A DNA stretch of 64,000 nt, taken from contig NZ_RXOB02000032.1 in assembly GCF_004143485.2 (NCBI RefSeq), forward strand, positions 62,001-126,000. Direction: 5' to 3'. The position numbers were made by a program, and so were the translations under genes. Below are positions 24,241 through 29,540 of the stretch, piece after piece. The stretch's first letter is position 1. Each line of letters begins with the position of its first letter. The stretch is from Halorussus amylolyticus. Its GTDB lineage: Archaea; Halobacteriota; Halobacteria; Halobacteriales; Haladaptataceae. The notes beneath the pieces were generated by a model. It was not told the DNA's origin and searched no databases. It was given only the letters and a program-made list of their open reading frames with translations.

Positions 24241-24642
24241 TCAGTTTTGAACCGGCACACTCTCCTCGACCGCGACGTACTTGTCCTCGAATTCTTGGAT
24301 GAGTTGGCCCATTTTAGCGTACCAGTCGTTGAGCATCCGTTGCATGTTGTCGGCGATCTTCTCGGGGTTGGTCGGTCGGTAGACGTGGTAATAGCCACCT
24401 TGGTCGTAGTTCACCTGCTCCTTCTGGATGAAGCCCGCCTGGAGCAGTCGCTGGACCGACCGGTAGGCGGTCGAGCGCTCGCGGTCGACGCGCTCGGCGA
24501 GTTCGTCGATGGTCAGCGGTTCCTCACTCTCGACGAGTCCCATGAAACATTCTTTGTCGAGTTGCTTGAGTCCGTGGAAACATTCCAGTAGTCCTTCGCA
24601 CTCCATGTCCTGTTGAAGGTACTCCGCCATTGAATTGCTCAT
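24241..24642 (-). CDS. Winged-helix transcriptional regulator (TrmB-like)
   Basis: 133 residues. ECFMGLVESEEPLTIDELAE, RVDRERSTAYRSVQRLLQAG and FIQKEQVNYDQGGYYHVYRP form a TrmB/MarR-type winged helix with the wing at GGYYH. The C-terminal NMQRMLNDWYAKMGQLIQEF is a likely dimer helix. It lies 120 nt downstream of trxB on the same strand and may regulate or be controlled with the thioredoxin pair. Cys residues (MECEGLLECF, KECF) near the N-terminus could allow redox sensing; that is inference. Confidence 0.8.
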   Translation of the reverse strand: MSNSMAEYLQQDMECEGLLECFHGLKQLDKECFMGLVESEEPLTIDELAERVDRERSTAYRSVQRLLQAGFIQKEQVNYDQGGYYHVYRPTNPEKIADNMQRMLNDWYAKMGQLIQEFEDKYVAVEESVPVQN

Positions 24643-24762
24643 TTGTCGTACTAAGTGTACGGCTCGGGGAACTAAAAGTGTTGTGTGATGCGCACAATTC
24701 TGGCCACAAATACTCTATTTTCGGGTTCAGCAATCGGTCGAACGAATAGCCACCGGCTCAGA

Positions 24763-25758
24763 TTACTGCGGATTGGGCGCTGCCAACTGTCGCGTTTCAA
24801 GCCACGCTTCAGCGTCGAGCGCAGCCATGCTTCCCGTTCCGGCAGCCGTGATTGCCTGCTGATAGCGGGAATCCATCACATCTCCTGCTGCGAATACGCC
24901 GTCCACGGTCGTCCCTGTGTCACCGCCAGTTACGATATGACCGTCCGTATCGAGTTCGACGGGCGTTTCACGGAGGAAATCCGTGTTCGGGACGTGACCG
25001 ACGGCGTAGAACACGCCGCCGACGTCGACTGTTTCGACCTCCACGCTCTCACCATCTTCGTACTTCTCTGCCGGATAGCCATCCGGGTGAGAGACGAGTT
25101 TCGCGCCGGTGACACCGTCCTGCTGGGACCCTCGAAGCCTGACTAACTCCGTGTTCCAGCGGATTTCGACATCTTCGTGGTCGAATACTCGCTGGGTCAG
25201 AATCTCCGACGCCCCCAGTTCGTCTCGCCGATGGACGACCGTGACCGAACTAGCGAAGCGAGCGAGAAACGCAGCCTCCTCCATCGCCGAATCGCCACCG
25301 CCGACCACAAGTACGTCGTCGCCGCGGTGGAATGCGCCGTCGCATGTGGCGCACGTCGAAAGGCCGTATCCCATCAGTTCGTCCTCCTTGTCGGCACCGA
25401 CCCAGCGGGCGCTCGCTCCGGTCGCGACGACGAGCGCCCGAGTGCGGATAGTCTCGTCGTTCGATAGTGAAAGCTCGAAAGGCCTGCTGTCGAGGTCGGG
25501 TGATTCGATGCCCGCTCGACGGAACTCGGCACCGAACTGCTCTGCCTGCTTACGACCGCGCTGGACGAGGTCCATCCCACCGATTCCCTCGGGAAAGCCG
25601 AGATAGTTCTCGACCTCGGTGGTGAGCGTGAGTTGGCCACCCGGTTCGTCGCCTTCGAGGACGACAGGGTTGAGGTCGGCTCGTGCCGCGTAGACCGCGG
25701 TCGAGAGCCCAGCGACCCCCGAGCCTGCGATCACCAGCTCGCGTAGGTTATCAGTCAT
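24763..25758 (-). CDS. trxB: Thioredoxin reductase
   Basis: 331 residues from the ATG at 25758. FAD-binding GSGVAGLSTAVYAARADL, redox motif CATC in YGLSTCATCDGAFHRG, NAD(P)-binding VVGGGDSAMEEAAFLARFA and the C-terminal GVFAAGDVMDSRYQQAITAA are all present. It reduces thioredoxin with NAD(P)H. A GTG at 25776 directly abuts the trxA stop (TAAGTG) and is an equally possible start. Together with trxA it forms a tight operon. Confidence 0.95.
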   Translation of the reverse strand: MTDNLRELVIAGSGVAGLSTAVYAARADLNPVVLEGDEPGGQLTLTTEVENYLGFPEGIGGMDLVQRGRKQAEQFGAEFRRAGIESPDLDSRPFELSLSNDETIRTRALVVATGASARWVGADKEDELMGYGLSTCATCDGAFHRGDDVLVVGGGDSAMEEAAFLARFASSVTVVHRRDELGASEILTQRVFDHEDVEIRWNTELVRLRGSQQDGVTGAKLVSHPDGYPAEKYEDGESVEVETVDVGGVFYAVGHVPNTDFLRETPVELDTDGHIVTGGDTGTTVDGVFAAGDVMDSRYQQAITAAGTGSMAALDAEAWLETRQLAAPNPQ

Positions 25759-25776
25759 CTTGTTCGTAGTAGTCAC

Positions 25777-26136
25777 TTACTCCGTGTGGTCTTCGATCGT
25801 CGCTTCGAACTGTTCCTTGCTCTGGAGTCCGACCATTCGGTCGACGAGTTCGCCGTCTGCGAACAGGACGAGTGTCGGAACGCCCTGCACGCCGAAACTA
25901 GCTGCGAGTTGCGGGTTAGCGTCCACATCGACCTTCGCCACCGTCGCCACGGTGTCTGCGGCCAGTTGTTCCAGTGTCGGCTCCAACATCTGACACGGCC
26001 CACACCAGTCGGCATAGAAGTCCGCGAGGACTACGTCATGCTCGTCGACGAGTTCGTCGAGCGCCGTTCCGTCATTGACGCTAACGGGGGTGTTAGGTGT
26101 CGATTCGGTTCCATTCGTGGTCGTGTTGTTTGCCAT
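25777..26136 (-). CDS. trxA: Thioredoxin
   Basis: 119 residues. A Thr/Asn-rich N-terminal extension of about 25 residues is followed by a thioredoxin fold with the active site DFYADWCGPCQMLEPTLEQL and the cis-proline loop GVQGVPTLVLF. It is cotranscribed with trxB, whose first possible codon follows the stop directly. The pair provides protein disulfide reduction in the cytoplasm. Confidence 0.95.
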   Translation of the reverse strand: MANNTTTNGTESTPNTPVSVNDGTALDELVDEHDVVLADFYADWCGPCQMLEPTLEQLAADTVATVAKVDVDANPQLAASFGVQGVPTLVLFADGELVDRMVGLQSKEQFEATIEDHTE

Positions 26137-26191
26137 CAACTGGGGGTACGCACTCGCGCTATTTAATAGTTTTGTGGATACTATACAATAC

Positions 26192-26399: not shown

Positions 26400-26740
26400 C
26401 GATTCGACTCGCTGTTCCGGCATATCTGGATTCAGGGCGTAACCGGCTACGGGAAATCTACGGACCTGAATACCATCTCGGTGTAATTAGCGTACGCTGG
26501 CCGTGGCTTCGTGTCCGTTGACCCGAAAGGTCGTGATTCCCGTGACCCTCTGCGGAAATTCCCTACCCACCGTCTCAAGGATGTAATCTGGATTGAGCCG
26601 GGGTCATCCAAGCACGATAAGACGGTCGGGCTGAATTTTCTCGAAGTCCCCGAATGTGAGACTGAGGAGGAGTACGAGAACGAGATCGAGGGTCGAATCG
26701 AGAATCTGAAGGCGGTTTTCGATACCGACGAGTACTGCGG
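26400..26740 (+). pseudogene. Fragment of a VirD4/TraG-like coupling ATPase
   Basis: The frame has FRHIWIQGVTGYGKST (Walker A), an in-frame TAA, then LAYAGRGFVSVDPKGRDSRD, RLKDVIWIEPGSSKHDKTVG and LNFLEVPECETEEEYENEIE. This matches the N-terminal part of the type IV secretion DNA-binding domain of haloarchaeal VirD4-like proteins. It is killed by the stop and cut at about 26740, where a transposase frame begins. Confidence 0.75.
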
Positions 26741-27040
26741 TTTTCTCTATCGAACAGATTCGCGAGATGTACCGGCAGGCGATCCGGCACCTCATCGACG
26801 AGGTCGCAGAGACAGAGGAGTTCTTCCGCGCCGGTATCGTCGCCATCGACATTACTGAAGCCGACTCTTTCACGGGCGATAGTCACAAGGACAAAATCAT
26901 CGGGACAAAAGAGCAGACCGATGAGTATGCCTATCAGTGGGCCACGGTTCAGTTGGTCGGCAACGCCGTCCCAATCGTGTTAGACGCACGCCCGGTTGGG
27001 AAAGGCGAGACTGTTAACGCCGAGGTCAGTACCGAGGACT
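26741..27040 (+). pseudogene. Fragment of a haloarchaeal IS transposase
   Basis: MYRQAIRHLIDEVAETEEFF, RAGIVAIDITEADSFTGD and AYQWATVQLVGNAVPIVLDA are characteristic of a haloarchaeal DDE transposase of the ISH type, covering the first catalytic Asp (VAIDITE). The frame then enters unrelated sequence. It is fused directly to the VirD4-like fragment, so this junction is an old recombination point. Confidence 0.7.
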
Positions 27041-27213
27041 GTTTCGTGCTCGGTAGCTTCCGAAACCTCTGTGTCCTCACCGTCGGTTTCCTCTCCGGCC
27101 TACTCGCCCCTTCGGTGCTTCTTGAGGCCGGAGGCTCACCCTCGGAAATGCTGAAATCCACGACGGACCGGAACTTAACACATATATCCGACGACCGTGT
27201 ACCCCTACTTTAT

Positions 27214-27531
27214 ATGCAATTCTGTGACGAGTGTGGCTCGATGATGCACACGGAGGGCGACACGTGGGTGTGTCGCTCCTGTGAGAACGAGGAGCCACGG
27301 GACTCGCAAGCAGAAGCGGCGATGACGACCCAGGATGGACAGCGGGACGACGGAGCACCCGCCGTGGCCGACGCGACCCAGGGCTCCACCGAGACGATGC
27401 AGGAACCCTGTCCGGCGGACGACTGCGACGGCGACCGGGCGTACTACGAGATGATGCCGAAGCCAGGCGGCTCCTACGAGGTTCGGCTGTTCACCTGCGT
27501 CGAGTGCGGCCACAAGTGGCGCGAGACCTGA
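27214..27531 (+). CDS. TFS-like transcription factor (TFIIS/RPA12 type) lacking the catalytic acidic pair
   Basis: 105 residues. The N-terminal zinc ribbon is CDECGSMM...CRSC and the C-terminal ribbon is CPADDC...CVECGHKW. TFS normally stimulates transcript cleavage by RNA polymerase through an Asp-Glu pair at the tip of the second ribbon (RxADExxxxFFxC). Here that tip reads PKPGGSYEVRLFTC, with Gly-Ser in the DE positions, and the first Cys pair is spaced CX4C rather than CX2C. It may therefore bind polymerase without promoting cleavage. A TATA-like CATATATC lies about 27 nt before the ATG, so the transcript is likely leaderless. Confidence 0.85.
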   Translation: MQFCDECGSMMHTEGDTWVCRSCENEEPRDSQAEAAMTTQDGQRDDGAPAVADATQGSTETMQEPCPADDCDGDRAYYEMMPKPGGSYEVRLFTCVECGHKWRET

Positions 27532-27538
27532 TACGGTT

Positions 27539-27604
27539 TGCTGTAGGAAGTTATCGTCTTGACCGCCCAGCGGGGCGGCGGTCAAGCGGTAACCGTCTAC
27601 AGCA
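27539..27604. terminator. Long imperfect hairpin after the TFS-like gene
   Basis: Arms TGCTGTAG and CTACAGCA enclose GTTATCGTCTTGACCGCC and GGCGGTCAAGCGGTAAC around a GC-rich loop, so the fold is about 66 nt long. It begins 8 nt after the stop codon. It could be a transcription terminator or a small mobile palindromic element; no T-run follows, which argues for the latter. Confidence 0.5.
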
Positions 27605-27920
27605 GACAGTATGACGGTGCATCTCGCGAACTCCGCCGCTGAAATTTGCACAGACCGTCACATCAGGCTCTCAAATCCCGGGGTTACTCGGTCTCAAGTG
27701 GAGCCACACATCGACTCCAAACCGACTCCCGCAACGTTCTTGAGGCTAACACCAGCCGCTGTCACAAGAGCCTTTGTTGGGATGTTCGTTCCCCTGATTA
27801 TCGGTGCGGTAATCGTTGGAACACTCTATCTCCAGAAACGGAACCGAAGATGGGGCAGTGTTCGTCGATGCCTCTGGGGACCTACTCGCCGCAGCCGTTC
27901 ACTCCGCTTCGTTCGCTGGG

Positions 27921-28396: not shown

Positions 28397-28816
28397 ATGT
28401 ACAACAATATCTTGGTACCGACAGACGGGAGTCAAGGAGCGGAAGCCGCTCTCAAACATGGCATAGAGATCGCGTCACAGTGAGAGGCGACCTTGCATAC
28501 CCTGTACGCCGTCGATACTCGCCTGGCGCGCTCCGGACCGTTGCTCGAAACGCTCCGGGACAAAGGACGCAAGGCAGTACGAGATGTCGAGGTGACTGGA
28601 ACCCAAGCCGGCCTGACCGTCGTGATCGAAATCGTCGAGGGGAACTCGCACGAAGAGATTGTGGACTACATCACCGAGCACGGTATCGACATGGTCATCA
28701 TGGGAACCCACGGCCGGACAGGTCTCGACAGAGTCGTTATGGGAAGCGTCGCAGAACGAGTGGTTCGGCGGTCGCCTGTTCCCGTCGTAACCGTTCGGGG
28801 TGAGGAGCAGAACTGA
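28397..28816 (+). pseudogene. Universal stress protein gene with an internal TGA
   Basis: A complete USP frame (MYNNILVPTDGSQGAEAALK to GTHGRTGLDRVVMGSVAERV) is broken by one in-frame TGA at 28481, after GIEIASQ. Other USPs have Cys, Tyr or Phe near this position; TGT or TGC to TGA is a single change. Nothing else is damaged, so inactivation is recent, or the call rests on a single base of the assembly. Restart at the TTG at 28493 would lose the nucleotide loop. Confidence 0.85.
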
Positions 28817-28820
28817 GTTT

Positions 28821-29355
28821 CTAGCAGACTCCAATCTTTAGACCTCCTTCTCGTGGGTTTGCGAGGATGACTGTTCCTCTGTCTCGGAGTGTGGGGTACC
28901 GCGCTTTCCAGCTCAGTTTGTGGAGTTCGATAGCGACGGCGATGGTCAGGGCAATCCCGCCGAGAACAAGCCACTGTTCTAGCCCGACAGGTGCCGTTCC
29001 GAGGACCGCCTGAGCGGGCGGAAAGTACATTCCCCCGAGATGGACCAAGAACGCTGTAATCGTTCCGGTGAGCAATATCGGGCTCCGAAACGGTGAAAGC
29101 TGGAACAGCGAAGTCGTCTCGGATCGGGCATTGCCAATATTAATCATCTGGAACAGGACAACCAGGAGACGCAGGTGGTTGCGGACGGCAGCCTCCGAGA
29201 GCTCCTGGTCCAGCAACCGGACGAACGTCCCGAACCCGATCACGCCGATCACCAGCGTGGCGACGAGCGTCCGTTCGATCATGATTTGATTGAAGATTCG
29301 CTCGTCCGGCGAGCGCGGCGGACGATTCAATACGTCTCCCTCCTTGGGTTCGAAG
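28821..29355 (-). pseudogene. C-terminal fragment of a cation-transporting P-type ATPase
   Basis: The minus-strand frame reads ALAFEPKEGDVLNRPPRSPD and ERIFNQIMIERTLVATLVIG, then three further membrane helices, as in the Cation_ATPase_C domain of PMCA/SERCA-type pumps. The phosphorylation (DKTGT), ATP-binding and actuator domains are missing. Its broken 5' end lies against a copy of the primase C-terminal module, so the pump gene was cut by that rearrangement. Confidence 0.85.
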
Positions 29356-29364
29356 GCGAGGGCG

Positions 29365-29540
29365 ACATCGAACTCGAAATAGAAGTGGAGCGGCTCACGG
29401 CCGAACTCGCGGAGCGTGACCAAGCGACGGGTCAGACTCACGAGGAGCATATTGGTAGTGGGAGCTCAGACGAAGAGGAGTCCCACTCGGAGTCTGTCTG
29501 AGGTCGGACGAAGCGGCTGTTCGGAAACGACCCTGACTCG
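29365..29540 (+). repeat. Primase C-terminal module, copy A (damaged)
   Basis: The + frame reads ELEIEVERLTAELAERDQAT, GQTHEEHIGSGSSDEEES and then GRTKRLFGNDPD, with TGA in place of the Trp codon of SVWGRTK. It repeats the coiled-coil tail of the NrS-1 polymerase-like gene (copy B near 38.8 kb) and the orphan copy C near 43.8 kb. No primase body is attached. Confidence 0.8.

Follow-up and report, generated by a model that had tools for sequence, protein, structure and literature searches.

The window analysed here, a stretch of 64,000 nucleotides from Halorussus amylolyticus, encodes a paralogue of the transcript-cleavage factor TFS in which the acidic pair at the tip of the C-terminal zinc ribbon is replaced by Gly-Ser. 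The replacement defines a subfamily, hereafter the GGS type, that is found alongside intact TFS proteins in about a third of Halobacteria genomes. Our preferred reading, to which we give roughly even weight, is that the GGS type is an accessory, naturally cleavage-dead TFS that would occupy the NTP channel of RNA polymerase in competition with the canonical factors, without promoting cleavage, and that would be expressed only conditionally. Here, we lay out the evidence for this reading and weigh it against other functions that such a protein could have.

The tip was compared between 105 distinct GGS sequences and 101 canonical ones (45 TFS1, 26 TFS2 and 30 outgroup sequences). Canonical tips follow the pattern Q-x-(R/G)-x-A-D-E, fixed in TFS1, TFS2 and outgroup TFS, with Q, A, D and E at 100% in every group. 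At the positions of the invariant Asp and Glu, the GGS type has G86 (100%) and S87 (99%), and its tip residues P, K, P, G, G, S, Y and E are each conserved at 99–100%. The resulting tip is fixed, nearly without exception, as PKPGGSYEVRLF; in the window protein it reads M81-P-K-P-G-G-S-Y-E89 (MPKPGGSYEVRLF). Besides the lost acidic pair, it has Lys where TFS1 and the outgroup have Arg (100%), Tyr where Ser/Pro follows the Glu, and a deletion that makes it one residue shorter than the TFS1 tip. The exchange of Asp-Glu for Gly-Ser, which an initial annotation had claimed for the single protein, thus proves to be an essentially invariant difference between the two sets, and the acidic residues are not supplied nearby: E89 is the sole acid of the tip region and is aligned to a non-catalytic Glu of TFS1.

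Mutagenesis of TFIIS has shown that the loop residues Gln, Arg, Asp and Glu are important for cleavage. From the alignment, we infer that the GGS type is a cleavage-dead TFS subfamily, in keeping with the requirement for Asp-Glu cited in PMC5715097. A modified cleavage or fidelity factor, in which special ionic conditions would let PKPGGSYE still assist RNA polymerase, for example via Ser87 or E89, strikes us as highly improbable. The requirements could shift in a high-salt cytoplasm and the tip is strongly conserved, but TFS1 and TFS2 of the same cell retain Asp-Glu with no exception, E89 lies outside the catalytic pair, and the tip Gln, plus the Arg of TFS1, is gone as well.

The gene and its surroundings are summarized in Table 1. 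ORF finding extends the reading frame upstream to 254 aa (26767–27531), which we considered as a fusion protein and rejected; the subfamily-specific promoter falls inside this extension, so that 27214 is the true start. Orthologues that are 80–96% identical to the window protein are spread over many haloarchaeal families. All eight zinc-ligand Cys residues are present and conserved in the GGS type (C7, C20 and C23 are invariant and C4 almost so in TFS alignment A1), with the C-terminal ribbon following the pattern C66-x4-C71...C95-x2-C98. The N-terminal ribbon of TFS/RPB9 is the part that docks on RNA polymerase. Its match to Zn_ribbon_RPB9 passes the Pfam cut-off and is non-discriminating, as the family spans subunit M/15-kDa proteins generally. 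The TFIIS ribbon PF01096 matches weakly (16.7 vs 21 bits cut-off), and the archaeal TFS model TIGR01384 (TFS_arch) aligns over residues 2–104 at 41.2 bits, below its cut-off of 64.75. In the linker, Glu60 takes the place of a Pro that is invariant in canonical linkers.

Table 1. Features of the GGS-type TFS locus (window positions) and canonical paralogues elsewhere in the host assembly
Feature	Position	Strand	Basis or remark
GGS-type TFS paralogue, 105 aa + TGA stop	27214..27531	+	ORF call and orthologue comparison
N-terminal zinc ribbon, residues 1-31 (C4, C7, C20, C23)	27214..27306	+	Pfam PF02150, 1.2e-9
Linker, residues about 32-65	27307..27408	+	Fastest-evolving stretch; low model confidence
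C-terminal zinc ribbon, residues 66-105 (C66, C71, C95, C98), hairpin strands 76-82 / 89-95	27409..27528	+	Alignment and model
Hairpin tip P82-K-P-G-G-S-Y-E89, in place of TFS1 Q-I-R-A-A-D-E-S-E	27457..27480	+	Alignment columns
Subfamily-specific promoter core CCGGAACTTAACACATATATCCGA, BRE/TTAA box + conserved block	27168..27191	+	~23 bp 5' of ATG; conserved at unrelated loci
Near-perfect palindrome, about 80 bp (TACGGTTTGCTGTAG...CTACAGCAGACAGTA)	27532..27611	.	TGA on both flanks (stop codon and second TGA); sequence comparison
Canonical TFS1	C2:612121		Tip QIRAADESETRFF
Second canonical paralogue, named TFS2 here	C2:241509		Tip TGAADEPPTRFF

Across 77 intact GGS genes, dN/dS is about 0.22, and pN is lowest in the tip (0.023), followed by the ribbons (0.06) and the linker (0.098). 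Judged by these values, the GGS type is under purifying selection, and the Gly-Ser tip is no damaged one-off: its occurrence in about 126 copies, at this dN/dS and as the least divergent region, is far above chance. That the gene is instead a decaying, functionless duplicate hitch-hiking on megaplasmids is hardly credible to us. Broken copies do occur, namely in Halobacterium NRC-1 pNRC200, on a Halorubrum ezzemoulense plasmid and in genomes G348 and G193, but the low dN/dS, the invariance of tip and zinc ligands, and a promoter conserved over dozens of genera speak against decay.

Phylogeny with chromosomal TFS, as called for in the initial annotation, places the GGS type in one clade. A maximum-likelihood tree built on 146 rows and 108 columns, in which many shallow forks are without resolution, sets the GGS type on one side of one branch (support 100/100), nested within haloarchaeal TFS1 of family f3. 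Its closest relatives are the Asp-Glu TFS1 proteins of genus g56, which are 58% identical to the window protein, and at the level of sequence the GGS type is thereby shown to derive once from haloarchaeal TFS1. The g56 proteins likewise carry a CX4C pair (CPxxDC; CPNPDCDGERARYEM) while bearing Asp-Glu, so CX4C is older than the loss of the acidic pair and uninformative on activity; its earlier treatment as a telling feature has to be dropped. One genome of genus g56 (G156) contains a very divergent GGS-type copy with the tip PEPRGSY, immediately 5' of an Asp-Glu CX4C TFS1. This tandem pair (L142, 2018–2725) is compatible with an origin of the subfamily by tandem duplication, of which it would be a remnant, but the long branch of the divergent copy makes its position unsure. 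Elsewhere, at L192 (G041, 2717400–2718097), a canonical TFS2 has beside it, on the other strand, a diverged copy of the TFS2 type that has lost its last Cys pair (KCENRISVSNSYQIR), another decaying TFS duplicate.

The host assembly contains three TFS genes: the GGS type, canonical TFS1 and canonical TFS2. Among 59 sampled Halobacteria genomes, the TFS1 + TFS2 pair is almost universal; the GGS type is present in 19, all of which retain two Asp-Glu TFS, and it is therefore an addition and not a replacement. A wider search gave a strong match in 140 of 391 Halobacteria genomes (47 of 84 genera). After leaving out the matches in G250 and G356, which are merely the Asp-Glu TFS1 of genus g56, about 138 of the 391 genomes, in 46–47 of the 84 genera, carry the GGS type, several Haloferax, including H. 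gibbonsii, H. larsenii and H. denitrificans, and Haloarcula among them. From these, 126 GGS copies were extracted. The gene resides on both chromosomes and megaplasmids, with at least 18 plasmid records holding a full or nearly full copy, and broken or partial copies are found in at least four genomes (G089, G193, G348, G395). On Halobacterium NRC-1 pNRC200 (about 274835–275076, L262), a frameshifted GGS remnant that is unannotated as such lies near an ISH3-type element, its promoter still recognisable.

Several observations bear on how the gene spreads. Haloarchaeal families are intermixed within the GGS part of the tree. Between genomes, the median of fourfold-degenerate differences is 0.17 for the GGS type vs 0.50 for TFS1, and protein identity is 0.91 vs 0.67, for genome sets that differ between the two genes. 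Similarity between loci covers the gene and about 50–110 bp upstream, and at fewer loci also about 100–300 bp downstream. No recurrent gene neighbour or operon partner was found among 81 loci, and 118 flanking ORFs scanned with Pfam and PADLOC gave at most four members per family, with no common function and no defence association. Together, this sequence-based picture is one of a gene that is transferred between families as a single-gene unit with its own promoter, and that is gained and lost. Neither a set of 50,697 phage records nor IMG/VR gave a viral match, which rules out a viral origin of the GGS type as far as these collections reach. Nor do these searches and scans place it in a class of virus- or defence-island-encoded RNA polymerase inhibitors, its neighbours differing from locus to locus, and the role under phage attack or stress that the initial annotation had envisaged finds no backing in these searches.

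The upstream region is conserved in its own right. Within the 100 bp preceding GGS genes lies a CACATATATCCGACA block, and the conserved block has the consensus CGGAAGTTAACACATATATCCGACAnCCGTGTATTCC and ends ~10 bp before the ATG. TFS1 promoters have in common with it only the TTAA box at about the same distance. A search of 292 genomes for CGGAARTTAACACATATATCCGA with at most two mismatches found it 65 times, in 62 genomes. Matched by eye to gene positions, all 65 sites lie just 5' of a GGS gene; the reversed control gave no site in the same 292 genomes. The host genome has a single site. Dedicated regulatory input of the GGS gene is therefore likely from the sequence pattern. A regulon sharing this element was ruled out, as no other gene carries it at up to two mismatches in the 292 genomes or up to three in the host genome. 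We also do not claim the inverted repeat in the promoter (TCGGA/TCCGA arms) as an operator, since changes in the left arm occur without matching changes in the right arm. About six copies (L082, L086, L090, L102, L108, L109) have an alternative promoter of the AAACCTATATTTGTCACGnnCGTAGAT type in which CTATATnnGnCA and CGTG are retained, hinting at one regulator site that may have been kept in two promoter backgrounds.

The palindrome directly downstream of the gene has a folding z of -7.5 and is an incidental, MITE-like insertion that separates the stop codon from the usual 3' flank of the unit; palindromes of similar length with other interiors occupy the same place at three unrelated loci (L054, L079, L087), and its left arm has no second site in the host genome. 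On the 5' side, at about 26400–27150, remnants of P-loop ATPase-like ORFs (GYGKST) with frame breaks look like a decayed gene beside which the TFS unit landed; Pfam gave no match on the fragments tested from this region. Further upstream (24241–26139), genes for a TrmB-like regulator, thioredoxin reductase and thioredoxin follow each other on the minus strand. Downstream are a truncated universal stress protein (28493–28816) and a C-terminal fragment of a P-type ATPase (28821–29450), truncated genes suggesting that the region has been rearranged.

An AlphaFold2 model of the window protein (pLDDT 72, pTM 0.39; domains not placed relative to each other) has a six-residue loop, KPGGSY, between the hairpin strands, and a modelled TFS1 (pLDDT 68; strands 72–77 and 87–92) has a nine-residue loop. 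Between C71 and C95 the GGS type counts 23 residues vs 24 in TFS1. By sequence and model, the GGS hairpin is thus near full length, unlike that of TFS4, which is about 8 residues shorter (TFS1 84–98 being replaced by TFS4 72–78; PMC5715097). When TFS4 is bound to the polymerase, its C-ribbon occupies the funnel, with jaw and trigger loop displaced (PMC8448823). The shortened TFS4 hairpin is defined by 2–3 Lys/Arg at its tip, and inhibition requires three Lys, as TFS4-AAA is inactive (PMC5715097). The initial annotation had likened the protein to this inhibitor. A TFS4-like global shut-off, with funnel binding, opening of clamp or jaw, and a stop to initiation and elongation during, for example, infection or stress, seems unlikely to us. 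The architecture is the same, with Asp-Glu likewise lost in an additional, conditional copy with its own promoter, TFS4 (7oqy_Y) is among the fold matches, and K83 with the rigid Pro-rich tip could give inhibitory contacts. However, the GGS type has one Lys where three are needed, its hairpin is one residue shorter instead of about 8, it scores 26.7 bits on the TFS4 model NF047723, mainly over the N-terminal part and far under the cut-off of 120, and it has no association with viruses or defence in phage records, IMG/VR or flanking ORFs.

The best PDB sequence matches are RPC11/RPB9/RPA12, the best Foldseek matches RPC11, RPA12 and RPB9, with TFS4 in 10th place, and PGAP names the GGS type 'RPA12/RPB9/RPC11 family' or 'subunit M'. 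RPB9, itself paralogous to TFIIS, has no cleavage activity (PMC5715097). The GGS type might then be an exchangeable subunit that alters termination, start-site choice or pausing, with a tip that has no role at the active site, which we also consider improbable. Canonical TFS relatives generally match in the same way, so these matches hardly discriminate, and the fold search was set aside as a means of telling RPB9-like from TFS-like proteins. That the gene is accessory, patchily distributed and recently derived from TFS1 counts against a core subunit, and the invariant tip implies that the tip has a job.

The near-full-length hairpin, the missing acidic pair and the lack of a positive cluster match the GGS type better to TFS1-AA than to TFS4. 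TFS1-AA reduces processivity in a different manner than TFS4, comparable to dominant-negative TFIIS-AA and GreA mutants, and TFS1 and TFS4 compete for RNA polymerase (PMC5715097). For the cleavage-dead TFS that we favour, docking would occur as in TFS1, with the N-ribbon on the lobe/jaw and the C-ribbon in the NTP-entry channel, in competition with TFS1/TFS2. The GGS tip would not stabilise Mg-B, preventing assisted cleavage of backtracked RNA, and the bound polymerase would stay paused or backtracked, with lower processivity, as with TFS1-AA or TFIIS-AA. The protein would be made only in certain conditions, from its dedicated promoter. Docking may differ from that of TFS1, given a linker that has lost the invariant Pro and is less conserved than any other part. 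A negative effect on RNA polymerase, which the initial annotation had also proposed, is what we infer as the best explanation. The absence of Asp-Glu by itself would demand far less conservation than the new tip shows, which suggests specific contacts beyond passive blocking. Such extreme conservation argues for a specific action that is left unexplained in detail by a brake, by TFS4-like or by RPB9-like behaviour. More tentatively, and with less than even weight, the promoter-plus-gene unit could be a mobile one-gene brake on RNA polymerase, exchanged among haloarchaea, whose product, with its dedicated PKPGGSY tip, takes the place of TFS1 in the NTP channel and conditionally imposes dormancy or global pausing in a way unlike TFS4 or plain loss of cleavage.

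The initial annotation had regarded such a regulator as new to haloarchaea. That Halobacteria have multiplied their tfs genes is on record (PMC5715097), so the paralogy as such is not new. In the literature that we searched, we came across no description of this paralogue, and neither the invariant GGS class nor its promoter or mobility seems to have been reported there; the main text of the paper on the transcriptome of HFTV1-infected Haloferax gibbonsii does not feature the gene. If our reading is true, a cleavage factor was turned into an inactive or inhibitory one independently in haloarchaea, via a different tip solution, and mobility as an accessory gene can carry such a factor across an archaeal class, genetically tractable species included. 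It also raises the testable question of what use antagonism of transcript cleavage has in cells that already have two active TFS.

Among known systems, haloarchaeal TFS1 (TIGR01384) shares with the GGS type its length and two Cys4 zinc ribbons, including CX4C in genus g56, and differs in having Asp-Glu, Gln (and Arg) where the GGS type has PKPGGSY; the latter also scores under the TIGR01384 cut-off and is accessory and mobile, with its own promoter. Sulfolobales TFS4 (NF047723; PDB 7oqy) is likewise an Asp-Glu-less paralogue beside TFS1, but its hairpin is much shortened with 2–3 Lys, whereas the GGS type has a near-full-length hairpin with PKPGGSY and one Lys, arose independently inside haloarchaeal TFS1 and has no known virus induction. 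The laboratory mutants TFS1-AA, TFIIS-AA and GreA also lack the acidic pair on a near-intact hairpin, and their dominant-negative behaviour is predicted for the GGS type, which in contrast is natural, fixed by selection and wholly remodelled at the tip instead of carrying two Ala. RPB9, RPA12 and RPC11 share the order of the two zinc ribbons, with RPB9 devoid of cleavage activity, but are stable universal subunits, unlike an accessory protein of about a third of genomes. Finally, Thermus Gfh1, a non-homologous coiled-coil protein, offers a functional analogue: a relative of a cleavage factor that has turned inhibitor via the secondary channel.
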